60,820 nt of DNA from Methylocystis sp. (GTDB lineage: Bacteria > Pseudomonadota > Alphaproteobacteria > Rhizobiales > Beijerinckiaceae): the NCBI RefSeq assembly GCF_021731785.1, contig NZ_JAKFWS010000005.1:1-60820 (forward strand), given 5' to 3'. The notes under the pieces are model-generated. The model did not search any database. It saw only the letters and a list, made by a program, of their open reading frames with translations, and had not been told where the DNA came from. Shown piece by piece: positions 7,517 to 57,349 of the stretch; position 1 is the stretch's first letter; every line of letters begins with the position of its first letter. Position numbers and translations under genes: made by a program.

Positions 7517-8587
7517 CTAACCGCCCTCTGCCCGCGCCAGCCGCTCGAAAACCCCCAGCACCAGCGCGCGCTTATCGAAATTGAACACCTCGGTTTCGCG
7601 CGCGGCGCTGCGAATCTCCTCCCAGGCGCGGGCGTAGCCGGCCAGTCTGATCGGCGGCGCGCCAGTACCCGCAAGCTCTCGCACGCGCGCGTCGAGATGA
7701 CGCTGCGTCGCGCGCATGAAGGTCTCATAGGCGGCTTCATTGTCGCGGCCGGTGAGCTTGTCGGCGAGCATATGCGCGCCGAGCCAATCGACCTGCGGCA
7801 GCCGATCGAACAGCCGGCGAACGGCGGCGTCGAAGGCGACGCCGTCATCTCCAAGCAGCCGCAGCGCCTCGCGCACCGAGCCATCCGCGCGCGCCGCGGC
7901 GACGATGAGGTCCGCCTCGGGCGCCGTCGACCATGGGGGCCCGACATTCTTTACCGCTGCGATCGTGTCTTCCGGCGACAGGGGGCCGAGCATCAGCTTG
8001 CGGCAGCGCGAGCGGATCGTCGGCAGGATGCGTCCCGGCTGATGCGCAACCAGCAGAAACAGCGCGCGTTCGGGCGGCTCCTCGATGAGCTTCAGGAGCG
8101 CGTTGGCGCTGGCGCGATTGAGATCGTCGGCGCAGTCGACGATGGCGATCCGCCAGCCGCCCGTTCCCGACGCCTGATGGAAGGCCTGGATGACCTTGCG
8201 CACCTCTTCGATGCGAATTTCGGTGAAATGCTTTTTGGTCTTCTCGTTCCAGGCGCGGCGCAGCAGAAAAATATCGGCAAGCGCCATCGAGGCGATCCGA
8301 CGCGCCGCCGGATGGTCTTTGGCGACCCAGAGGGTTTCGGCGGACTGAACCGCCGCCGCGCTCGAATCGGGATGGGCGAGTAGAAATCGCGCCACGCGCC
8401 AGGCGAGCGTCGCCTTGCCGACGCCCTCCGGCCCGCCGATGATCCAGGCCTGCGCCATCCTGTTGCGACGGTAGGCGTCGAGGACCTCCCGCTCCGCCGC
8501 GACGTGACCAAACAGGGCGAGAATCTCCCGCGGGTGCGGGGCGTCGTCGTAGCGGTCGCTTTCGGGGTTCGCTTCGTCGCGGCTCAT
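7517..8587 (-). CDS. holB: DNA polymerase III subunit delta'
   Basis: This 356-residue clamp-loader subunit has a degenerate P-loop (GGPEGVGKAT at about 51-60) and the DCADDLNRASANALLKLIEEPP region typical of DnaX/HolB proteins. It works in the pentameric clamp loader that places the beta sliding clamp on DNA. The gene overlaps tmk by four bases, an arrangement common in proteobacteria. The N-terminal extension (MSRDEANPESDRYDD) is usual for alphaproteobacterial HolB. Confidence 0.92.
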   Translation of the reverse strand: MSRDEANPESDRYDDAPHPREILALFGHVAAEREVLDAYRRNRMAQAWIIGGPEGVGKATLAWRVARFLLAHPDSSAAAVQSAETLWVAKDHPAARRIASMALADIFLLRRAWNEKTKKHFTEIRIEEVRKVIQAFHQASGTGGWRIAIVDCADDLNRASANALLKLIEEPPERALFLLVAHQPGRILPTIRSRCRKLMLGPLSPEDTIAAVKNVGPPWSTAPEADLIVAAARADGSVREALRLLGDDGVAFDAAVRRLFDRLPQVDWLGAHMLADKLTGRDNEAAYETFMRATQRHLDARVRELAGTGAPPIRLAGYARAWEEIRSAARETEVFNFDKRALVLGVFERLARAEGG

Positions 8588-9261
8588 TGCGCCGCTTGCG
8601 CGGCATGCGCAAGAAAGCGGTCGTGAACGAGCGCGCGCACCGCTCGGGCGACGCCGTCGACGGACAGCGATGCGTCAATTACACAGCAGCGTTCCGGTTC
8701 GCTTTCGGCGATGGCGAGGAAGGCTTGCCGAAGCTCCTCGTGGAAGGACGGCGCCTCGTTTTCGAAGCGGTCGGCCGCCTCGCAGCCGTCTCGCCGCGAC
8801 GCCGCCCGCGCCAGGCCTTCTTGCGCAGGCAGGTCGAGCATGATGGTCAGATCCGGTCGGGTTTCGCCCACCGCCGCGCGTTCGAGCAACGCCAAAGTCT
8901 TGGCGTCCACGCCGCCGTTTGCACCCTGATAGGCGCGAGTTGAATCGGCGAAGCGATCGCACAGCACCCATGCGCCGCGCTTTAGCGCCGGCGCGATCAG
9001 CGTCGCGACATGATCGGCGCGCGCCGCAGAAAACAGCGCCGCCTCGGCAAGAGGACCAAGCGGCGCGGCGCGTCCCGAAAGCAAGAATTCGCGCAGCTTC
9101 TCGGCTTTTGAGGTGCCGCCCGGCTCGCGCGTCGTCACCACCTCGACGCCGCAATCGCGCAGGTGCCCCGCGAGGCGCGCAAGCTGCGTCGACTTGCCAA
9201 CGCCCTCGCCGCCCTCGAAGGTGATGAAGCGGCCTTTTTCGGGCGTCGTCTGGAAGGTCAT
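8584..9261 (-). CDS. tmk: Thymidylate kinase
   Basis: This 225-residue dTMP kinase phosphorylates dTMP to dTDP. The P-loop GGEGVGKST is at residues 17-25. The TREPGGT motif, the CDRFADSTRAYQG substrate-binding segment and a lid region near 150-170 are all present, and the length is normal. It sits in a tightly overlapped minus-strand operon, with four-base overlaps to both the D,D-carboxypeptidase gene upstream and holB downstream. Confidence 0.95.
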   Translation of the reverse strand: MTFQTTPEKGRFITFEGGEGVGKSTQLARLAGHLRDCGVEVVTTREPGGTSKAEKLREFLLSGRAAPLGPLAEAALFSAARADHVATLIAPALKRGAWVLCDRFADSTRAYQGANGGVDAKTLALLERAAVGETRPDLTIMLDLPAQEGLARAASRRDGCEAADRFENEAPSFHEELRQAFLAIAESEPERCCVIDASLSVDGVARAVRALVHDRFLAHAAQAAQ

Positions 9262-10445
9262 TTCTTGCCGGACAGTTTCTGGTGGATGGCGGCGGCGGCG
9301 GATTCGTAAATCGCGTCGAAGGCGCGCCGCGGCAGCGATCCCTGCTCGACCGCTGCAGAGGTCTGGAGCGGCTGTTCCAGCACTACGGCGGCGCCACGCT
9401 TGATTTCGAGGCGGCCGACCGGCGTCCCCGCTTCGACAGGGGCCAGCACCGGACCTTCGTAAACGATCTTGCCCATCAGCCTCTCATTCGCGCCGCGCGG
9501 CAAAAGCACCTTGATGTCTTCCTTGGCCGACAGCTCCACGGAGCCTTGCGTGCCGCCATAGACCTGGGCTGGCCCAACCGGCTCACCGGCCTTGAACAGT
9601 TCCTTCTCCTCGAAATTGCGGAATCCCCATTGCAGCAATTTCCGCGCTTCTTCGGCCCGCTCCTTCGCAGATTTAGCGCCATAAATGGCGACGATGAGGC
9701 GTCTGCCGTCCTGCGTCGCGGAACCGACCAATCCGTAGCCGCTTTCCTTGTCGATATTGCCGGTTTTCAGCCCGTCCGCCCCGATGCTCATGGTGAGCAG
9801 CGGATTACGATTCTGCTGGCGTATTTTGTTCCAGGTGAACTCCTTCTCACCGAAATAGCCGTAAAACTGCGGATAGGTCTTGATGATATGCGCGGCGATC
9901 TTCGCCATCTCGCGCGCCGTCACCTTCTGGTCCGGACCGTCCATGCCCCAGGGATTGCCAAAGCGCGATTTGACAAGGCCGAGTTCGGCGGCGCGCTTGT
10001 TCATGCGCGTTACGAAGGCTTCCTCGGAGCCCGCCAGACCTTCCGCAAGGGTTATCGCGGCGTCGTTGCCGGACTGGATCACCAGGCCGCGAAGGAGGTC
10101 TTCGACGCGGGCGCGGCTGTTGAGCGCGAGGAACATCGCCGATCCGCCCGCCGGCGCGCCGCCCGTGCGCCAGGCATGCTCGGAGACGGCGAATTCGTCG
10201 TCGAGATGCAATCTGCCCTCGACAAGCGCCTGAAAGATCAGTTCGGCCGTCAGAATCTTGACGGTCGAGGCGGGCTTGGTGAATTCGTCAGCGCCCTTCT
10301 CGAACAAAACAGTGTTGGTGCCGGCGTCGATCAGAATCGCGCTTGGCACGCTCGTCTGAAAACCCTGGGCGCAGGCGTAATCTGCGCCCGGCCCCGCCAA
10401 AGCAAGAAAGGCCAGGATCAGGCATCGCACCGGAAACTTCGGCAA
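9258..10445 (-). CDS. D-alanyl-D-alanine carboxypeptidase (PBP5/6 type)
   Basis: This 395-residue exported protein has a signal peptide of about 26 residues (MPKFPVRCLILAFLALAG...). The three penicillin-binding motifs are present: STVK (in KPASTVKIL), SGN (QSGNDAAI) and KTG (LKTGN). A C-terminal beta domain (PBP5_C) and a short terminal amphipathic stretch (AFDAIYESAAAAIHQKL) that can anchor it to the membrane follow. It trims the terminal D-Ala of peptidoglycan pentapeptides in the periplasm. It resembles DacC/DacF. The gene starts the dac-tmk-holB operon. Confidence 0.92.
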   Translation of the reverse strand: MPKFPVRCLILAFLALAGPGADYACAQGFQTSVPSAILIDAGTNTVLFEKGADEFTKPASTVKILTAELIFQALVEGRLHLDDEFAVSEHAWRTGGAPAGGSAMFLALNSRARVEDLLRGLVIQSGNDAAITLAEGLAGSEEAFVTRMNKRAAELGLVKSRFGNPWGMDGPDQKVTAREMAKIAAHIIKTYPQFYGYFGEKEFTWNKIRQQNRNPLLTMSIGADGLKTGNIDKESGYGLVGSATQDGRRLIVAIYGAKSAKERAEEARKLLQWGFRNFEEKELFKAGEPVGPAQVYGGTQGSVELSAKEDIKVLLPRGANERLMGKIVYEGPVLAPVEAGTPVGRLEIKRGAAVVLEQPLQTSAAVEQGSLPRRAFDAIYESAAAAIHQKLSGKK

Positions 10446-10537
10446 GGGCGCGCTCTCCCCCTATTGACGCCGCAGCGCGGCCGAGCGCGGAGAAGATGGC
10501 GCGCGGCGTCGAAAATTGCAATCTCGATATGGTCCGG

Positions 10538-11545
10538 TCAGTTGGTCTTGACCGAGGAATTCAGCGCCTGGCGAAAAGCGCCTCGAACTGAAGCCTGACG
10601 GATGCCAAGATGCGCGGGCCGCACCGGCGGCAGCGGCGCGACAACTTCCCTCGCCTTCCGGGTTGAAGCGACTGGCTCCTCGTCGACGCCGGCGTCCTCG
10701 CGGGAGGGAGGCAGCGGCGCTTCGCTCTCCTGCGCGGCATATGCCAGAGTCTGTTCGCGGTCGGCCTGGGCGTTCTCATAGGCGATGCGCGCCGAGAGCT
10801 CCGCAGCCTCGGCTCTTTCGTCAGTGCGGGCGGTTTGCGCCGGCGCCTCATTCGCCGAGGCCAGCATCGTCCAGGGCGTGGCGTCCAGCTGCGCCGGAAC
10901 GCCATCGTCGCGCAGCGTTGCGAGAAGTTTGGCGTCGTCGTCGCCCTCAATATCGGCGCGCCCGATCCAATCCACCTTGACGCGCGTCGTTCCCACGCCG
11001 TGGAAGTCGAGCGCTTGGGCCACCCGCTGCGACACGTCCATCACGCGTCCGCCATGATAGGGCCCGCGATCATTGACGCGCACCACTATTGAACGGTCGT
11101 TGCGCAGATTGGTGACCCGCGCATAGCTCGGGAGCGGCATGGTGGGGTGAGCGGCGGAAATCGACGCCCTGTCGAAGATTTCGCCATTGGCGGTGCGGCG
11201 GCCATGGAAATCCGACCCGTACCAGGACGCGGTTCCGGTGGCCGAATAGGGCTTTTCGCTTGGATAATAGGTCCGGCCGGCGATCTTGTAGGGCTTGCCG
11301 ACCATATAGGCGCCGCCGCCTTTCGGCACCTCTTCCCCGTCCGCGATCAACCGCGGACTTGGACGCACGCCGTAGCGCGGGTCGATCTGGCCGAGGCCGC
11401 CGAGGCTCGCGCTTCTGTGCGATCCAGAGGAAGAGCAACCGGCGAGCGCGCCAAGACAGACAAGAGGCACCAGTCTGGCGAGGAATTTCGGGTTAAATTT
11501 GCGATGCTGCGCACAAATAAAAGTCTTGAAGACGACAGATCGCAT
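10538..11545 (-). CDS. rlpA: RlpA-type septal ring lipoprotein
   Basis: I start this at the ATG at 11545, giving about 335 residues. That places a lipoprotein signal at the N-terminus ending in the lipobox LGALAGC, and an AAGG Shine-Dalgarno lies nine bases upstream. The frame is open 66 codons further without signal-like sequence. A double-psi beta-barrel domain contains TGTASWYG, RTANGEIFD, the catalytic-type SAAHPT histidine and VNDRGPY aspartate. RlpA proteins are lytic transglycosylases acting on denuded glycan strands at the septum. The C-terminal 150 residues are low-complexity and I see no SPOR domain. Confidence 0.88.
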   Translation of the reverse strand: MRSVVFKTFICAQHRKFNPKFLARLVPLVCLGALAGCSSSGSHRSASLGGLGQIDPRYGVRPSPRLIADGEEVPKGGGAYMVGKPYKIAGRTYYPSEKPYSATGTASWYGSDFHGRRTANGEIFDRASISAAHPTMPLPSYARVTNLRNDRSIVVRVNDRGPYHGGRVMDVSQRVAQALDFHGVGTTRVKVDWIGRADIEGDDDAKLLATLRDDGVPAQLDATPWTMLASANEAPAQTARTDERAEAAELSARIAYENAQADREQTLAYAAQESEAPLPPSREDAGVDEEPVASTRKAREVVAPLPPVRPAHLGIRQASVRGAFRQALNSSVKTN

Positions 11546-48437: not shown

Positions 48438-48539
48438 TCATCGCGCTTCGTCAAGGGAAGCGGACGCTGAGTCATGAAGACGAAGGAGGGACGCGCTACC
48501 ATAGCGTCGACGCGAGGCGCGCCGTTCGCTTCTGTCGCT

Positions 48540-48615
48540 GGCCTTCCCTACGCCGGCATGACCCGGATCAGGTTCGACGGGTGCTTCTCAGCCGCGCTTG
48601 CGGCGCCCCTCGCCA
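48540..48615 (-). promoter_or_regulatory. TPP riboswitch (THI element) upstream of thiC
   Basis: Reading the minus strand, the conserved THI parts appear in order: GGGCGCC...GGCTGAGAAGCACC, then CGAACCTGATCCGGGTCATG, then CCGGCGTAGGGAA. They lie 115 bases before the thiC ATG. The element binds thiamin pyrophosphate and shuts off thiC expression. The remaining bases to the ATG can form the expression platform. Confidence 0.95.
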
Positions 48616-48704
48616 TTATGGAAAAGTTACTGCGTTCACACTCGCGTCGCAAGTTCGCGTGGCGATACCGGCAAATAGCGTATAGCCCCGACGAGCCCAG
48701 ACAT

Positions 48705-51242
48705 ATGAGGAATCTAAATTTCCAGGGTCTGTCTTCAAACGAGGCGGCCCGGCGCCTTGCCCAATACGGCCCCAACGAGCAGCCGAAGGCGCCACCGCCA
48801 GGCGTATTCGCGATCGCGCTGCGCACGCTCAAAGAGCCCATGTTCTTTCTGCTTGCGTCGGCCGCGCTGCTCTATCTTTTCGTCGGCGATCTGGGCGAAG
48901 GCCTGTTCATGGTCGCCGGCGCCGGCGCGTCGATTACGCTTGTCATTCTGCAGGAGCTGCGAACCGAACGCGCGCTCGAAGCGCTCAACCGGCTTGCGGA
49001 GCCGACCGCAACTTGTCTGCGCGACGGGGTCGAGCGTCGCATTCCGGCGCGCGATCTCGTGCCCGGCGACCTTATTCTCGTCGGCGAGGGAGAGCGTGCG
49101 CCTGCCGACGCGGTGCTGGTCGGCGGCGACGCGCTGGTTATCGACGAGTCCCTGCTGACCGGCGAATCGGCTCCAGTGACGAAGACGCTCGCAGGCGAGG
49201 CCCGTTCGGCGGAATTCCCCGATCCTGGCGGAGAGCATACGCCTTTTCTTTTCGCCGGAACCATGATCGCGCGCGGATCGGGGCTGGCCGAGGTCGTGCG
49301 CACCGGCGCGCGCACAGCGATGGGACGTCTTGGCGCCTCGCTCGCCGCGATCGAGGCCGAGCCCAGTCCCCTGCAGCAAAGAACCGGCAGACTGGTCGCG
49401 ACGCTCGGCGCCTTCGCGCTCCTTTTTTGCGTGCTGGTGTTTCTGGCCTATTGGCTCGTGCATGGCGACTGGTTTGAAGGCGCCATCGCCGGCATCACGC
49501 TCGCCATCGGCCTTCTGCCCGAAGAATTTCCGATGGTGCTGGCGATCTTCCTCGCGCTCGGCGCCTTTCGGCTGGCGCGTCGCAACGTGCTCGTGCGTCG
49601 CTCCTCGGTGACCGAGACGCTGGGCTCTACGTCGATACTTTGTGTCGACAAGACCGGAACGCTGACGCAGAACCGCATGCGCGTCGCGTTCGCCATTCCC
49701 GAAAGCGACAAGGCGATCGATGCGCCGCTGGCGGATGCCGTACAGCGCATGCTCATCCGCGCCGCCTTGCGCGCGTCATCGGCAAACCCCGTCGATCCCA
49801 TGGATCGCGCCGTTCACGCCTTCGCGGCGGACGTCGGCGTGGCGCCGGAAGGCGAACCGGTTCGCAGCTTCCCAATCCGCCCAGACCTTCTCGCTTTCAT
49901 TCAGTGCTGGCGCGATGAGTCGGGTGAGAGCTACGCCGCGAAAGGCGCGCCGGAGGCGATCTTCAAACTCACGCGAGTTTCTGACGAAGAACGCGCACGC
50001 CTTCAGACTAAAATCGACGATCTGGCGCGTCGCGGGCTTCGCGTGCTTGGCGTCGCGACGACGGCGCCGCTGCCGCAAGCGCTTCCGCTGGAGACCGCAT
50101 CGTTTGATTCTGTCGGATTGCTCGCCTTTGAGGACCCGCTGCGCGACGACGTCCCGGCCGCCGTCGCAGCGGCGCGCCGCGCGGGAGTCGCCGTGGCGAT
50201 GATCACCGGCGATTACCCTGCGACGGCGCTCGCCATCGCGCGCCAGGCAGGGATCGATTCTGACGCCGGCGTGATCACTGGCGCCGAGATCGGCGGCACG
50301 CCGAGCCGCATGCTTCCCGAGAAGATTCGCAATGTGCGCGTCTTCGCGCGGGTGACGCCGACAAGCAAGCTTGCGCTCGTCGAGGCGTTCAAGGCCGACG
50401 GCCAAATTGTCGCTATGACCGGCGACGGGGTCAACGACGGGCCGGCCCTCGCCGCTGCGCATATCGGCATCGCCATGGGCCAGCGCGGCTCGGACGTCGC
50501 GCGCGAGGCCGCGCATATCGTGTTGCTCGACGACAGCTTCACGTCGATCGTCGCCGGCGTGGCGCTGGGGCGGCGCATCTTCGCCAACCTCCGCCGCGCG
50601 CTCACCTATGTGACGGCAATTCACATTCCGATCGCCGGCGTCGCCCTGGCGCCAATCCTGATGGGGCTGCCGCCGCTGCTGCTGCCGGCGCATGTCGTGC
50701 TGATGGAGCTGATCATCGATCCGACCTGCGCGCTCGTTTTCGAGTCGCAGCCGAATGAGGCTGACGCCATGCTCAAACCGCCGCACCGGCGCGATGAGCC
50801 GCTTTTTGGTCCGCGCGAACTCTTCCTGGGTTTCGTGCAGGGCTTCGTCGTCTTCCTCGCCGTGATGTCGGTCTATGTCATCGACAATGGGTTGGGCGCG
50901 CCCGAGCGGCAAGCGCGCGGGCTCGCCTTCGCAACCCTTGTCGTCGGCAATCTCGTGCTTGCGCTGTCGGATGCGCTTCCGCGCGGCGCGTCGCTGTTTT
51001 CACGCGATAATATGGCGTTCTGGCTCGTCGCCCTCGCGGCCAGCGCAATGGTGGCGGCATGCCTTTACGTTCCGCTGATCGCGGAGCTTCTGCGCTTCGA
51101 GCCGCCGACTTGGCCAAAACTCGCTCTGGCGCTGACGCTCGGCACGATCGCCGGAAGCTGGTACGGCGTCTGGCGTCGGTTGCTCTATCCGGCGCCGCGC
51201 GCGCAGCGGGAAGACGCCGTCCTGACCATTGATTTGCGCTGA
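48705..51242 (+). CDS. P-type cation-transporting ATPase (P2-like, substrate unknown)
   Basis: This 845-residue P-type ATPase starts at the ATG at 48705. Upstream codons overlap the riboswitch of thiC and are not used. It has the N-terminal cation-ATPase domain (LSSNEAARRLAQYGPNE), the actuator motif LTGES, the phosphorylation motif DKTGTLTQN, KGAPEAI in the nucleotide domain, and TGDGVNDGPAL. About eight to ten membrane spans are expected. The membrane motif before the P-site is PEEFP, not the PEGLP of Ca2+ pumps or the CPC of metal pumps. Ca2+, Mg2+ or another cation is possible. Confidence 0.9.
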   Translation: MRNLNFQGLSSNEAARRLAQYGPNEQPKAPPPGVFAIALRTLKEPMFFLLASAALLYLFVGDLGEGLFMVAGAGASITLVILQELRTERALEALNRLAEPTATCLRDGVERRIPARDLVPGDLILVGEGERAPADAVLVGGDALVIDESLLTGESAPVTKTLAGEARSAEFPDPGGEHTPFLFAGTMIARGSGLAEVVRTGARTAMGRLGASLAAIEAEPSPLQQRTGRLVATLGAFALLFCVLVFLAYWLVHGDWFEGAIAGITLAIGLLPEEFPMVLAIFLALGAFRLARRNVLVRRSSVTETLGSTSILCVDKTGTLTQNRMRVAFAIPESDKAIDAPLADAVQRMLIRAALRASSANPVDPMDRAVHAFAADVGVAPEGEPVRSFPIRPDLLAFIQCWRDESGESYAAKGAPEAIFKLTRVSDEERARLQTKIDDLARRGLRVLGVATTAPLPQALPLETASFDSVGLLAFEDPLRDDVPAAVAAARRAGVAVAMITGDYPATALAIARQAGIDSDAGVITGAEIGGTPSRMLPEKIRNVRVFARVTPTSKLALVEAFKADGQIVAMTGDGVNDGPALAAAHIGIAMGQRGSDVAREAAHIVLLDDSFTSIVAGVALGRRIFANLRRALTYVTAIHIPIAGVALAPILMGLPPLLLPAHVVLMELIIDPTCALVFESQPNEADAMLKPPHRRDEPLFGPRELFLGFVQGFVVFLAVMSVYVIDNGLGAPERQARGLAFATLVVGNLVLALSDALPRGASLFSRDNMAFWLVALAASAMVAACLYVPLIAELLRFEPPTWPKLALALTLGTIAGSWYGVWRRLLYPAPRAQREDAVLTIDLR

Positions 51243-51448
51243 GGGGTGCAATACGCAAAAACCACATGTGTTGCAAAGACGTTACACGACGAAGAAATCT
51301 GTGCATGTGAAGGCGAATTTACGCCTCAAGGCGAATGAGTCTTGTAATGTTTACTACAGTGTGAGCCTGCGTCGGCGTTCGGCGCGACAGGCGAGCGCTC
51401 GCTATTGGTGGTGCTTTAAGAGACGGTTCGCCTTGGGATTTGCGGCCA

Positions 51449-52840
51449 ATGAAAAAATTTATTTCGCGCAGCTTCCTCATCACGCTGACGACGGCCGCGG
51501 CGTTCTCGCCCTCTTTGTCCTTTGGCGCCGACGGCTACTTCCTTACAGGTTACGGTCCACGTCAGCGGGCCTTAGGCGGCGCTGGCGTCGCGGACTCGCG
51601 AGACCCGATGGCCATGTCGATCAACCCCGCTGGCATTGTCGGACTCGACCGGACGTTTCAGGTCGGGCTCGCCGCGAGCCTCCCCGAGCGCGGTTACTCG
51701 ACGACAGGTCTGCCGGCGGTCCTGGCGCCCGGCGATGTGAGGAGCGGTCGACCGATCTTTCCGGTGCCTAACGGCGCCTATGTCCAGCCGATCGACGCCG
51801 AATCCGCATGGGGGGTCGCCAATTACGGCAACGGCGGACTCAATACTTCGTACGACTTCCAGCATTTCAAGCCTCCGGTCAAAGCGGGCCCAGGCGGCGC
51901 GATCACAGTTGCTCCTTCCTTCGGCGGCATCCTCGGCGGCGGCTGGGCGGGACTCGACCTTCAACAGTCGTTTATGAGCGTCACCTACGCCAGAAAATTC
52001 GGTCCGATCACGGTGGGCTTCTCGCCCACTTTGGCGATCCAGATGTTCAATGCGCAGGGACTGAAAATCCTCTCTCCCTACTCGTCCAACATGTACAACT
52101 TTTCCGACATGGGCTATGATTGGTCGGCCGGGGGCGGGTTCCGCGTCGGCGTCGAGTGGCGCGCGACGAACGAACTACGCTTTGGCCTCGCCGGCGCGAC
52201 TCCCATGTTCATGTCGAAGCTGGAAAAATATAGGGGACTTATTGCCGACAACGGCAGTTTCGACATTCCGGCGACCTTGATCGCCGGCGTCGCCTATGAC
52301 CTGCTGCCCAGCCTCACGCTGATGGCCGACTGGAGACACATCTTCTACTCGGCGACTACCGCCGGTTACGCGAGTTTTCCCATCTGGTACGGGTCATTCG
52401 GCTCATATGGCGGCAGCGGCTTTGATTGGCGCGACACTGATTCCGCCTCCTTTGGCGTCGAATGGCGCACTGCGTCAAAGCTGACGCTGCGAGTCGGCTA
52501 CCATTACTCAACCTTGCTGATGAGAGAGCGCTCCGCCACGCTTGCGGCGCTGGCGCCGCTTGTCGCCGCGCATGCCGTCACCGGCGGGTTCGGCTATCAG
52601 CTGACGGAGAATTCGTCGATCGATTTCGCCGCCATTCACGACTTCAAGAATTCGGTCAGCTATTTCGAAAACGCGCCCTTCGTCGGCCGCGCGTTTTTTC
52701 CCGCAATTCCAATAAATCTGCTTCCCCATTATAATACAAACGCCGTAATCACCGCTTGGGGACGCGCTACCCAGTTCACGGTCGGCTACAACTACAAGTG
52801 GGATGCAGGCGATACTTCGTGGATCCCCAGTCATTTCTGA
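51449..52840 (+). CDS. OmpP1/FadL-family outer membrane transporter
   Basis: This 463-residue barrel protein has a signal peptide (MKKFISRSFLITLTTAAAFSPSLSFGA). The FadL N-terminal signature YGPRQRALGGAGVADSRDPMAMSINPAG follows, then SVTYARKFGPITVGFS and WRTASKLTLRVGYHYS. Members take up hydrophobic molecules such as long-chain fatty acids or aromatic compounds. The ATG at 51449 is chosen because the signal peptide begins there. A strong terminator follows at 52884, and the gene is monocistronic. Confidence 0.9.
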   Translation: MKKFISRSFLITLTTAAAFSPSLSFGADGYFLTGYGPRQRALGGAGVADSRDPMAMSINPAGIVGLDRTFQVGLAASLPERGYSTTGLPAVLAPGDVRSGRPIFPVPNGAYVQPIDAESAWGVANYGNGGLNTSYDFQHFKPPVKAGPGGAITVAPSFGGILGGGWAGLDLQQSFMSVTYARKFGPITVGFSPTLAIQMFNAQGLKILSPYSSNMYNFSDMGYDWSAGGGFRVGVEWRATNELRFGLAGATPMFMSKLEKYRGLIADNGSFDIPATLIAGVAYDLLPSLTLMADWRHIFYSATTAGYASFPIWYGSFGSYGGSGFDWRDTDSASFGVEWRTASKLTLRVGYHYSTLLMRERSATLAALAPLVAAHAVTGGFGYQLTENSSIDFAAIHDFKNSVSYFENAPFVGRAFFPAIPINLLPHYNTNAVITAWGRATQFTVGYNYKWDAGDTSWIPSHF

Positions 52841-54328: not shown

Positions 54329-55264
54329 TTAGACGAACATCATCGCCGGATGTTCGATGACGCACTTGAATTCCGCCAAAAGCTCGGCGCCCAGCGCGCC
54401 GTCGACGGCGCGATGATCGCAGGAGAGCGTCACACTCATCATTGTCGCGACAATCGGCGCGCCGTTCTTGACGATCATCCGCTGCTCGCCCTGCCCGACC
54501 GCCAGTATCGTCGACTGCGGCGGATTGATCACCGCGGTGAAGCTCTGCACGCCATACATGCCGAGATTGGAGACCGCCGACACGCCGCCTTCATATTCAT
54601 GCGGCTTCAGCTTGCGGGCGCGGGCGCGGTCCGCAAGCTCCTTGATCTCGTCGGAAATCTCGCGCACCGATTTCGCCTCGGCATTACGGATGATCGGCGT
54701 CACGAGCCCGCCGGGGATCGACACGGCGACGCCGATATCCGAGGATTTGTGGCGCAGCAAAGCGTCCGGCGTATAGGTGACATTCGCCTCGGGCTTGCGC
54801 TGGAGCGCGAGCGCGAGCGCCTTCACCACGTAATCATTGACGGACGTCTTCCAGGTCGGCTTGCCGTCCGAGCCAAGCGGCGCGGCGGAATTATAATCCT
54901 CGCGCAGGCGCAGGAGCGCCTCGATCTCGCAGTCGATATTGAGATAGAAATGCGGAATGGTCTGGATCGCTTCGGTCAGCCGCCGCGCGATCGCCTTTCG
55001 CACATTGTCGTGCGGGATTTCCTCGAAAGAGCCGGCTTCGAAGAATTTGCGCGTGACGTCCGCCGACGGCGCGGCGGCGAGCGGCGCCGCCTTCGGCGTC
55101 TCGCCGCGCGCGATCGCTGTCTGCACGTCGCGTTCGATGATCCGGCCATGCGGCCCTGAGCCTTGAAGGGCGGAGAGATCGAGTCCGCCCTCCTTCGCTA
55201 GGCGGCGCGCGAGCGGCGAAGCGAAGATGCGGGCGCCGGGGGCGAATTGAGCGGGAGCGTTCAT
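54329..55264 (-). CDS. pdhC: Short dihydrolipoamide acetyltransferase (E2) without a lipoyl domain
   Basis: This 311-residue E2 consists of a peripheral subunit-binding domain (about 13-52, FASPLARRLAKE then GSGPHGRIIERDV) and the catalytic acyltransferase domain (about 75-311). The active-site motif DHRAVDGALG is intact. A usual alphaproteobacterial E2 of about 420-450 residues begins with a lipoyl domain. Here none is encoded, and only 65 bases lie between the start and the opposite-strand DUF29 gene. The lipoyl domain on E1-beta (55880-57349) probably serves the complex. No E3 gene is in the window. Confidence 0.92.
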   Translation of the reverse strand: MNAPAQFAPGARIFASPLARRLAKEGGLDLSALQGSGPHGRIIERDVQTAIARGETPKAAPLAAAPSADVTRKFFEAGSFEEIPHDNVRKAIARRLTEAIQTIPHFYLNIDCEIEALLRLREDYNSAAPLGSDGKPTWKTSVNDYVVKALALALQRKPEANVTYTPDALLRHKSSDIGVAVSIPGGLVTPIIRNAEAKSVREISDEIKELADRARARKLKPHEYEGGVSAVSNLGMYGVQSFTAVINPPQSTILAVGQGEQRMIVKNGAPIVATMMSVTLSCDHRAVDGALGAELLAEFKCVIEHPAMMFV

Positions 55265-55329
55265 CGTGCGAATTCGCCTTTGGCGGCGGAAAGTTCGCTA
55301 TATATTAGAGGCCTTGCGAAGAGCAGTCC

Positions 55330-55812
55330 ATGAACGCGTCGGGCCGAGCCAATAAATCACCCGAGGAGAAAGTGGCCGCGAGTCAGCTTTATGACCGAGA
55401 TTTTTACGCCTGGGCCAATGAGCAGGCGGCGCTGCTGCGCGCCGGAAAGCTCAGCGAGGCGGATATCGAGCATATCGCCGACGCGGTGGAGAGCTTGGGC
55501 AAAACCGAAAAGCGCGAGTTCGTCAGCCGATTGCGGGTCCTGATGCTGCATCTGCTGAAATGGCGCTTTGAGCCCGGCAAACGGACGCCGAGCTGGGAGG
55601 CGTCGATCAAGATTCAGAGACTGGATTTACTTGAGCATCTTCAAGACAATCCGAGCCTGCGCCCGGTGATCGCCACGATTCTTGAAAAGGCCTTCAAGGG
55701 GGCGGTGCTCGAAGCCATCGCCGAGACGGGGTTTCCGGACAAGACCTTTCCTCAGCAATGTCCCTGGACCTTCGAAGAGATGATGGCCGAGGATTTCTGG
55801 CCGGAGGGGTAA
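55330..55812 (+). CDS. DUF29 domain protein
   Basis: This 160-residue protein shows the DUF29 pattern YDRDFYAWANEQAALLRAGKLSEAD, IEHIADAVESLGKTEKREF, MLHLLKWRFEPGKR and the C-terminal CPWTFEEMMAEDFWPE. It is soluble, with no known activity. DUF29 genes occur in many cyanobacteria and alphaproteobacteria, often in several mobile-looking copies. It lies on the opposite strand between pdhB and pdhC, so it splits an otherwise co-directional pdh cluster. Confidence 0.88.
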   Translation: MNASGRANKSPEEKVAASQLYDRDFYAWANEQAALLRAGKLSEADIEHIADAVESLGKTEKREFVSRLRVLMLHLLKWRFEPGKRTPSWEASIKIQRLDLLEHLQDNPSLRPVIATILEKAFKGAVLEAIAETGFPDKTFPQQCPWTFEEMMAEDFWPEG

Positions 55813-55879
55813 GGCGGCGAGGCGCGCTTTGCGCGCGTCGGGAATGACAGTGCAAACGGCTTCCCTCACGCGCATCCAA

Positions 55880-57349
55880 TCAACGATACATCACCGCCTT
55901 CGCCGCGGCGACGACTTCCGCCACGCTCGGCAAAGCGAGCTTTTCGAGATTGGCGGCGTAAGGCATCGGCGTGTCCTTGCCGGTGACGCGCAGCACCGGC
56001 GCGTCGAGATAGTCGAAGGCCTCTAGCTGCACGCGCATCGCGATTTCGGCCGAGACTCCGCACTGCGGCCAGCCTTCCTCGATCGCGACGCAGCGGCCGG
56101 TCTTCTTCACCGAGTCGATGACGGTCGCCATGTCCATCGGCCGCAGCGTGCGCAGATCGATCACCTCGGCTTCGATTCCTTCCCTGGCGAGTTCGTCGGC
56201 GGCGCGCAGCGCATAGGTCATGCCGATCGAAAAGGAAACGAGCGTCACGTCCTTGCCCGGCCGGGCGATGCGGGCCTTGCCGATCGGCAAGACGAAATCC
56301 TCGAGCGCCGGCACTTCCGACGTCTTGCCGTAGAGAATTTCATTTTCGAGGAACACGACCGGATTGTCGTTGCGGATCGCGGCCTTCAGCAGCCCCTTCG
56401 CGTCGCTGGCGTTTGACGGCGCAATCACGATCAGTCCCGGCACCTGCGCATACCAGGCGGTATAATCCTGGCTGTGCTGAGCGGCGACGCGCGCCGCAGC
56501 GCCGTTCGGCCCGCGAAAAACGATCGGACAGTTGATCTGCCCGCCGGACATGTAAAGCGTCTTCGCCGCGGAATTGACGATGTGGTCGATCGCCTGCATC
56601 GAGAAATTGAACGTCATGAATTCAACGATCGGGCGCAGCCCCGCGAATGCCGCGCCGACGCCCACGCCGGCGAAGCCATATTCGGTGATCGGCGTATCGA
56701 CGACGCGCTTGGCGCCGAATTCCTGCAAAAGTCCCTGCGTGACTTTGTAGGCGCCCTGATATTCGGCGACCTCTTCGCCGATCACGAACACCGCCGGGTC
56801 GCGCCGCATTTCCTCGGCCATCGCGTCGCGCAAGGCTTCGCGCATGGTCATGGACACCATCGTGGTTCCTTCCGGGACCTCCGGCGCCACGCTTTTCGAC
56901 GGCTGCTCGGCGACGCTCGTCGCCTTGGGCGCAGGCGTCGCGGCTTCGACCGCGGCTTTGGTCTGCGCTCGATTGGCGTCTCCGGGCTGATCCTGAGGTG
57001 CCGTCTGGCCTGGCGCCGGCGGCACCGCTTCGGCCTGCTTCTGGGATTTGTCCTCTTCGCCGACACGCTTGATCGGCGCATGGTCGGCCGTATCAGCGAC
57101 CGACTCACCCTCCTCAGCGATCACCGCGATCGGCGTATTGACGGCGACATTCTCGGTGCCGCCCGGCACGAGGATGCGCGCCAATACGCCCTCGTCGACC
57201 GCTTCGACCTCCATCGTCGCCTTATCCGTTTCGATCTCGGCGATGACGTCGCCGGCTTTCACTGCGTCGCCTTCGCTTTTCAGCCATTTGGCGAGCTTGC
57301 CCTGCTCCATCGTCGGCGACAGCGCGGGCATGAGGACGTTGACGGTCAT
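55880..57349 (-). CDS. pdhB: Pyruvate dehydrogenase E1 beta with N-terminal lipoyl domain
   Basis: In this 489-residue fusion, residues 1-80 form a lipoyl domain with the lipoyl lysine K43 in [11 protein letters not shown]. Residues about 84-160 are an Ala/Pro/Gln linker. The rest is E1 beta, with [49 protein letters not shown] and [14 protein letters not shown] lipoyl domain on E1 beta is known from several alphaproteobacteria, usually together with a lipoylated E2. It starts 12 bases after the pdhA stop. Confidence 0.95.

Follow-up and report, generated by a model that had tools for sequence, protein, structure and literature searches.

A Methylocystis pyruvate dehydrogenase operon with a lipoyl domain on E1-beta and none on E2

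The genome of a Methylocystis sp. (NCBI RefSeq assembly GCF_021731785.1, here G000; 4.2 Mb in 197 contigs, 99.9% complete) carries the genes of a pyruvate dehydrogenase (PDH) complex on contig NZ_JAKFWS010000005.1 (here C15). Positions 1 to 60,820 of this contig were analysed, and this whole stretch of 60,820 nucleotides is called the window. PdhA (E1-alpha), PdhB (E1-beta) and E2 follow each other in this order on the minus strand, and a DUF29 gene of opposite orientation separates the E2 gene from pdhB. In the textbook PDH complex the swinging lipoyl arms stand on the E2 core. In the window, a lipoyl domain (LD) forms the N-terminus of PdhB, and E2 consists of a peripheral subunit-binding domain (PSBD) and a catalytic domain only. 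On the sequence evidence presented below, we consider it highly probable that this is a working PDH complex with its only lipoyl arm on E1-beta.

Domain architecture of PdhB and E2

The features of the locus are given in Table 1. A re-check of open reading frames (ORFs) and Pfam domains left the ORFs and coordinates of a first-pass annotation of this DNA unchanged. The span that it had assigned to the complex (54329 to 57349) does contain genuine genes of the complex, and also takes in the unrelated DUF29 gene, which it had not mentioned.

PdhB matches NF008854, the model of PDH E1-beta with LD, over its entire length (821.7 bits against a cut-off of 454; positions 1-464 of 464). The first-pass annotation had described a complete LD at the start of PdhB with K43 as its lipoyl-lysine, and Pfam, the AlphaFold model and the alignment of PdhB LDs all agree with it. 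The domain is predicted as folded (pLDDT 73-89 in blocks of ten residues) and K43 is found within [10 protein letters not shown]. The lipoyl position is occupied by lysine in all 36 PdhB LDs accompanied by a short E2 and in all 47 accompanied by an LD-bearing E2, and we infer that PdhB is lipoylated at K43. The E1-beta part finds its nearest solved structure in human E1-beta (Foldseek best match 6cer_D, target TM-score 0.94); it is mostly predicted with confidence, with two short low-confidence stretches (mean pLDDT of PdhB 75.0). The linker between LD and E1-beta has a mean alanine plus proline fraction of 0.49 in the clade of short E2s described below. Its median length in that clade is 64 residues (31 loci, range 49-85) versus 57 (45-80), a weak difference.

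In the E2 protein, a Pfam scan detects no PF00364 (Biotin_lipoyl) match. The best curated model is TIGR01349, the mitochondrial-type PDH E2, which aligns over its positions 136-436 of 437; PSBD and catalytic domain are covered, the N-terminal LD has no counterpart, and the score stays under the cut-off (391.9 bits versus 445). Two models of shorter E2s, NF008815 (PRK11857, 308 positions) and NF011416 (PRK14843, 347 positions), resemble the window protein in that its PSBD aligns from their positions 3 and 48, respectively, so that neither model has room for a full LD; their hosts are presumably Mollicutes and Streptococcus, with the LD on E3. However, the window E2 is far below both cut-offs (137.7 versus 378 bits and 178.1 versus 429 bits).

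The AlphaFold model of E2 comprises PSBD and catalytic domain with a mean pLDDT of 85.0. The nearest solved structures of the core are mammalian E2p cores (Foldseek best match 9j1w_A, pig-heart E2p core, target TM-score 0.91), and the closest solved E2 cores of mammalian and fungal mitochondria include 60-mers (7uom, 1.8e-79; 9j1w; 8piu). Unlike the window E2, these E2p chains carry LDs, which match the PdhB LD, whereas the solved E1-beta chains do not carry any. Among the 31 PDB sequences matched at E<=1e-8, none has a best-matching stretch that spans both LD and E1-beta. The DHRAVDG sequence, which we take to be the active-site motif, is well preserved: D283, H284, R285 and G289 are invariant among 25 aligned E2s, and DHRxxDG is found in the short E2s read, with the exceptions of locus L129 (see Discussion) and of the contig-end piece L127, which has no motif. 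Values of dN/dS between 0.076 and 0.187 in ten pairs, covering E2 only, indicate that E2 is under purifying selection.

The first-pass annotation had further stated that E2 starts at its PSBD with no lipoyl-coding sequence before it, and this stands. The E2 frame extends only 11 codons upstream of its ATG, and the upstream frames are closed by stops, which rules out a hidden upstream start codon. Between pdhB and the E2 gene, positions 55265-55879 contain the DUF29 gene as well as stops in all three minus-strand frames. No LD remnant was detected by tblastn with the N-termini of 54 LD-bearing E2s against the PdhB-E2 gaps of 34 of the 36 short-E2 loci (best E = 0.14; the other two gaps are under 30 nt). 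An LD would not fit at all in ten of the 36 loci, where only 32 nt separate the PdhB stop from the start of the PSBD; these loci come from nine genomes, since L032 and L066 belong to the same one. Insertion of the DUF29 gene is ruled out as the cause of the short E2, because the distance from pdhB to the E2 gene is 61 nt or less in 21 of the 36 loci, too short for a DUF29 gene. In relatives the gap is empty or contains various ORFs (e.g. L038, L069, L078), some of them DUF29-like by eye (L031, L073, L074, L080); it looks insertion-prone. A promoter scan returned 0 sigma-70-like sites. The window also encodes a P-type cation ATPase (48474-51242) and an OMPP1/FadL/TodX-type outer-membrane transport protein (51440-52840), after which comes an Mrp-type NTPase gene on the other strand.

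Table 1. Features of the PDH locus in the window, and the PDH-like operon on another contig of the same genome
Feature	Position	Strand	Evidence
PdhA, PDH E1-alpha, 334 aa	57362..58366	-	PF00676 9.8e-101; TIGR03182 484 bits, above cut-off 393.85
PdhB, PDH E1-beta with N-terminal LD, 489 aa	55880..57349	-	PF00364+PF02779+PF02780; NF008854
LD of PdhB, residues 1-80	57110..57349	-	PF00364 (Biotin_lipoyl) residues 5-77, 1.5e-18
Codon of predicted lipoyl-lysine K43	57221..57223	-	alignment of PdhB LDs
Flexible Ala/Pro-rich linker of PdhB, about residues 81-163	56861..57109	-	pLDDT under 50 at 82-154
E1-beta catalytic part of PdhB	55883..56860	-	PF02779 166-341, PF02780 357-479
DUF29 gene, no part of the complex	55330..55812	+	PF01724 6.7e-47
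Short PDH E2 (dihydrolipoamide acetyltransferase) without LD, 311 aa	54329..55264	-	PF02817+PF00198 only
PSBD of E2	55121..55228	-	PF02817 (E3_binding) residues 13-48, 2.8e-17; 1.5e-17 at these bases
Acetyltransferase catalytic domain of E2	54335..55030	-	PF00198 (2-oxoacid_dh) residues 79-310, 4.3e-76
DHRAVDG, presumed active-site motif of E2, residues 283-289	54398..54418	-	alignment
PDH-like operon, contig C2	L016 6785-9950		E1-alpha, E1-beta, full-length E2 with LD

Conservation and origin of the short E2

The short E2 was matched in 35 of 39 genomes of the genus, the four genomes without a match being 59, 77, 90 and 90% complete. The absence of the LD was read on the DNA for 15 of the 35 and from the frame length for the rest (G164 and G218 are contig-end pieces); it was also read on the DNA for 12 named loci, which overlap with the 15 genomes. 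The gene is present in independent isolates and in metagenome-assembled genomes (MAGs), including the one-contig genome G190. In G199, E2 lies 1.6 Mb from PdhAB and is still without LD. Ten named Methylocystis or Methylocystaceae loci (L031-L040) have an LD on PdhB and none on E2; L029 and L030 have the short E2, with pdhB outside the sequence piece examined. The LD is found on E2 in 13 named outgroup loci (L041-L050, L052-L054; L054 is broken, and L051 is a contig end). As one of these, L041, is named uncultured Methylocystaceae, the short E2 is not general to all named Methylocystaceae.

In a sample of 60 loci across the family, the combination of an LD on PdhB and none on E2 occurs in 16 of 16 loci of two genera, g1, which contains Methylocystis, and g42, which is probably Methylosinus. 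Both proteins carry an LD in 40 of the other 44 loci. The remaining four are two loci in which no LD was read on PdhB (L087, so counted though its LD sits in a separate short frame, and L118, a paralogous complex) and two contig ends (L083, L084). The LD of E2 is present in 27 of 27 other genera sampled. The relatives normally carry both domains, as the first-pass annotation had supposed, and the short form, the conservation of which it had left to be checked, is conserved within the two genera.

A maximum-likelihood tree of 93 E2 rows (rows rather than genomes, L032 and L066 being one genome) groups the family's 35 rows with a short E2 as a single clade (100/95) that sits within the LD-bearing E2s. 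This tree leaves out L054, L083, L084, L118, L126 and L127 (contig ends, a broken gene, a paralogous complex); its bootstrap had not settled, and the chosen outgroup does not form one side of a branch. The short-E2 group is also monophyletic in a PdhB tree from a fast search. These trees indicate one loss of the E2 LD before g1 and g42 separated.

The first-pass annotation had proposed that the arm moved from E2 to E1, and this is not borne out. PdhB LDs already exist in the relatives with LD-bearing E2s, and in all 31 loci compared the PdhB LD of the short clade resembles other PdhB LDs most, with a mean identity of 0.795 versus 0.747 to E2 LDs (L054, L066, L084, L118, L126 and L127 were left out of this comparison). 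A moved LD is thereby ruled out; judging from these comparisons, the event is the loss of a redundant E2 LD, and the PdhB LD is an ordinary one. The PdhB LD evolves more slowly in the short clade (pairwise LD/core ratio 0.61 versus 1.19), which is suggestive, as slower evolution would be expected of an only arm. In the 47 loci with two LDs, the PdhB LD shows an identity of 0.797 to the E2 LD of its own genome versus 0.761 to the E2 LDs of other genomes, a hint at possible gene conversion or concerted evolution between the two domains.

The E2 is present in 132 of 162 genomes sampled in the class. A row of PdhA, PdhB with LD and short E2 recurs in G327, G277, G355, G270 and G295 (L125, L128, L129, L130 and L131), i.e. 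in five further families. All five short E2s are open frames away from contig ends, checked on the DNA and confirmed by Pfam. Only one other LD-bearing frame of E2 size was found in G327, G277 and G295 (94-99% complete), which makes these three the clearest cases; G355 has one more LD-bearing E2, and G270 has one further LD frame as long as an E2 and a matching frame of 75 aa. The five rows are long-branched; the tree needs four trait changes, and its starred branches force at least two. The short E2 apparently has at least two origins in Alphaproteobacteria, one or more losses of the E2 LD having occurred outside the window's family.

The class-wide comparison leaves out ten of the 132 genomes (six with E2 at a contig end, four without a PdhB row) and one genome with PdhB at a contig end; the LD status of PdhB rests on alignment for 51 genomes and on frame length for the rest. 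Where PdhB is long enough for an LD, E2 is long in 94 of 100 genomes and short in six. Where PdhB is too short for an LD (by frame length), E2 is short in 0 of 21 and long in all 21. This is as expected if the E2 LD is lost only where E1-beta has an LD, in numbers too small to prove it.

Other lipoyl proteins and 2-oxoacid dehydrogenase complexes

A profile search of the whole window genome detects ten Biotin_lipoyl matches and four E2 catalytic domains. The matches are SucB (C25), PdhB (C15), the E2 of the C2 operon, a branched-chain 2-oxoacid dehydrogenase (BCKDH)-like operon on C53 (two matches, in a duplicated stretch), BCCP (C30) and GcvH (C59), each of which passes its cut-off, proteins of biotin-carboxylase type (C5 and C19), and an RND adaptor-like protein (C9), matched weakly and below its cut-off. 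A stand-alone lipoyl protein, which the first-pass annotation had suggested looking for, is not among the ten. Neither of the two lipoamide dehydrogenases over the TIGR01350 cut-off (C1, C55) has a PF00364 match. Since the other matches of the genome lie elsewhere and none is on E3, the window PDH operon has one LD, on PdhB, in agreement with the first reading of this operon.

The C2 operon is PDH-like, and its complex is possibly another PDH, or else an enzyme related to PDH. Its E1-alpha is over the TIGR03182 cut-off (439.5 versus 393.85 bits), and two AMP-binding enzyme genes lie upstream of it. Of the 39 genus genomes, 14 yielded a C2-type E2 (12 of 30 good ones) and 25 did not; its matches in G204, G220 and G227 have an internal stop. 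A full-length pyruvate E2 elsewhere in the genome had been named in the first-pass annotation as grounds for giving up its proposal. The C2 operon supplies one in the letter, but it offers no general explanation, because it was found in so few of the genus genomes.

The genes beside the BCKDH-like operon of C53 encode 3-hydroxyisobutyrate dehydrogenase (HIBADH), methylmalonate-semialdehyde dehydrogenase and homogentisate dioxygenase, all over cut-off. As these are genes of branched-chain and tyrosine breakdown, branched-chain oxoacids are the likelier substrates of this complex. Its E1-beta is just under the cut-off (321) of the PDH subfamily NF006667, with 317.0 bits in G000 and 315.5 in G190. 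An exact 1402-base match at an offset of 1401 lies inside the operon (L017, about 8562-11364), and beside this duplicated stretch E2 is divided into two ORFs, LD-PSBD (8415-8990) and PSBD-catalytic (7663-8436); in G190 and G078, where it was read, the BCKDH-like E2 is one ORF with LD, PSBD and catalytic domain. The duplication may be an assembly artefact.

Twelve near-complete genomes (eight of g1 and four of g42) were surveyed, with E2s assigned by score, position and frame size. Eleven of them have exactly three E2 catalytic domains, and G146 has a fourth, partial one. The three belong to a SucB-like E2, the short PDH E2 and a BCKDH-like E2 whose frame also encodes an LD. The other lipoyl/biotinyl matches are PdhB, frames of the size of BCCP, biotin carboxylase and GcvH, and a few weak partial ones; no further LD dedicated to PDH was seen in the 12 genomes.

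Discussion

The anatomy of the two proteins, its conservation, the polarity of the loss within the family and the absence of another LD from the operon and from E3 can be read in the sequences themselves, and they strongly suggest that the PdhB LD acts as the sole arm. We infer from them the lipoylation of PdhB, the function of its arm, the assembly of the complex and its substrate, as follows. Lipoyl-K43 of PdhB would be reductively acetylated at the thiamine diphosphate (ThDP) site of E1. The PdhB LD would then swing on its disordered Ala/Pro linker of about 80 residues to the CoA site of the E2 core, which would be held near because E1 sits on the PSBD of E2. The dihydrolipoyl group would then pass to E3, likewise on PSBDs, for reoxidation. 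In Geobacillus, according to excerpts of PMC2663715, one PSBD binds one E1 heterotetramer, and a linker of some 50 residues lets an LD carry the acetyl group over about 90 A. As one PSBD binds one E1 alpha2beta2, each E1-occupied PSBD would bring two arms; the geometry and stoichiometry would then be those of two LDs per PSBD on linkers of 49-85 residues (31 short-clade loci), by analogy. A complex with fewer arms does not follow from the loss of the E2 LD if the Geobacillus stoichiometry given in those excerpts applies.

In evolutionary terms, the ancestor would have had LDs on both PdhB and E2, and one loss of the E2 LD would have preceded the divergence of the two genera, with at least one further loss elsewhere in the class. 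It is probable that in these complexes the core has no arm at all and every arm comes from E1-beta, two per PSBD-bound E1, with the number of arms and active-site coupling set by the bound E1, and that this state evolved repeatedly (at least two and up to six E2 LD losses) where E1-beta had an LD. In that case the arm would not have to be the core's.

The closest known system is the Zymomonas mobilis-type PDH of Alphaproteobacteria, with the same PdhA-PdhB(LD)-E2 order, the same protein families and an LD on E1-beta; the latter is reportedly stated in the title of a 1999 paper on Zymomonas. However, E2 has kept its LD in Zymomonas and in relatives of this type. The Discussion of PMC7873978 places the Zymomonas LD on PdhA, while the title cited there says E1-beta. 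The same text, as far as excerpted, describes a PDH of Mycoplasma hyopneumoniae with an LD on E3 (PdhD), lipoylated at K42 (PMC7873978). There, too, a peripheral enzyme carries the LD, but the arm is on E3 and not, as here, on E1-beta, and no E3 of the window genome has an LD. Corynebacterium OdhA is, in the excerpted text of PMC10415282, an E2o-E1o fusion that uses the lipoyl arms of E2p in trans. Its E2 catalytic domain likewise depends on a lipoyl group from another chain; in contrast, the window E2 is a separate protein and its proposed arm is on its own E1-beta. In view of these precedents, the novelty lies in an arm on E1-beta alone, not in an arm off the core. No description of E1-beta as sole LD carrier was found in open-access papers.

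Several observations weigh against a sole arm on E1-beta. On C2, the window genome encodes another PDH-like complex, the E2 of which is full-length and bears an LD. The BCKDH-like operon has an E1-alpha that exceeds the cut-off of the PDH model TIGR03181 (458.5 bits in G000 and 458.8 in G190, versus 411.35). SucB-like and BCKDH-like E2s with LDs, which could act in trans, are present in all 12 near-complete relatives as well as in G000. The slower evolution of the PdhB LD is modest when measured on the tree (1.51 versus 2.30), where clades without a short E2 range from 0.93 to 3.08. The class-wide association between LD-bearing PdhB and short E2 (six of 100 versus none of 21) looks too small for significance, and one of the convergent E2s, L129, has DHRVING, with N for D, in place of DHRxxDG.

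Some of these observations would fit a short E2 that is served in trans by the LDs of SucB, of the BCKDH-like E2 or of the C2 complex, much as OdhA of Corynebacterium relies on lipoyl groups in trans (excerpts of PMC10415282). We regard this as unlikely: PdhB of the very same complex has an intact LD, the lysine of which is kept in 36 of 36 loci, and only one other E2-sized LD frame was found in G327, G277 and G295. Besides, E1 usually takes only its own LDs. It is very unlikely that the working PDH is the C2 or the BCKDH-like complex and that the window complex is a relic or acts on another substrate. The C2 operon does encode E1-alpha, E1-beta and an LD-bearing E2, and both E1-alphas exceed PDH cut-offs as given above, but the C2 E2 is patchy in the genus and interrupted in three genomes, whereas the short E2 was matched in 35 of 39, and the BCKDH-like operon lies among amino acid breakdown genes and has an E1-beta under the PDH subfamily cut-off. 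Furthermore, the window PdhA and PdhB exceed PDH equivalog cut-offs by 90 and 368 bits, respectively, and purifying selection acts on E2. There is a negligible chance, despite the 197 contigs of the genome, that the E2 LD is missing through an artefact of assembly, frameshift or wrong start. Independent isolates and MAGs, a one-contig genome among them, share the short gene, ten loci show the 32-nt spacing, and no LD remnant was detected; together these refute an artefact.

A PDH complex with its only arm on E1-beta and an E2 made of PSBD and catalytic domain would be a natural, conserved and recurrent arrangement that contrasts with the core-borne arms of the textbook. It would separate two usual roles of E2, that of scaffold and acetyltransferase and that of substrate carrier, and would offer a simple system for testing whether active-site coupling needs arms on the core. 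E2s of this kind may get flagged as truncated, since the window E2 scores below the cut-off of the curated model that fits it best. The arrangement may also shed light on the retention of an LD on E1-beta in many alphaproteobacteria: once present, it can take over.

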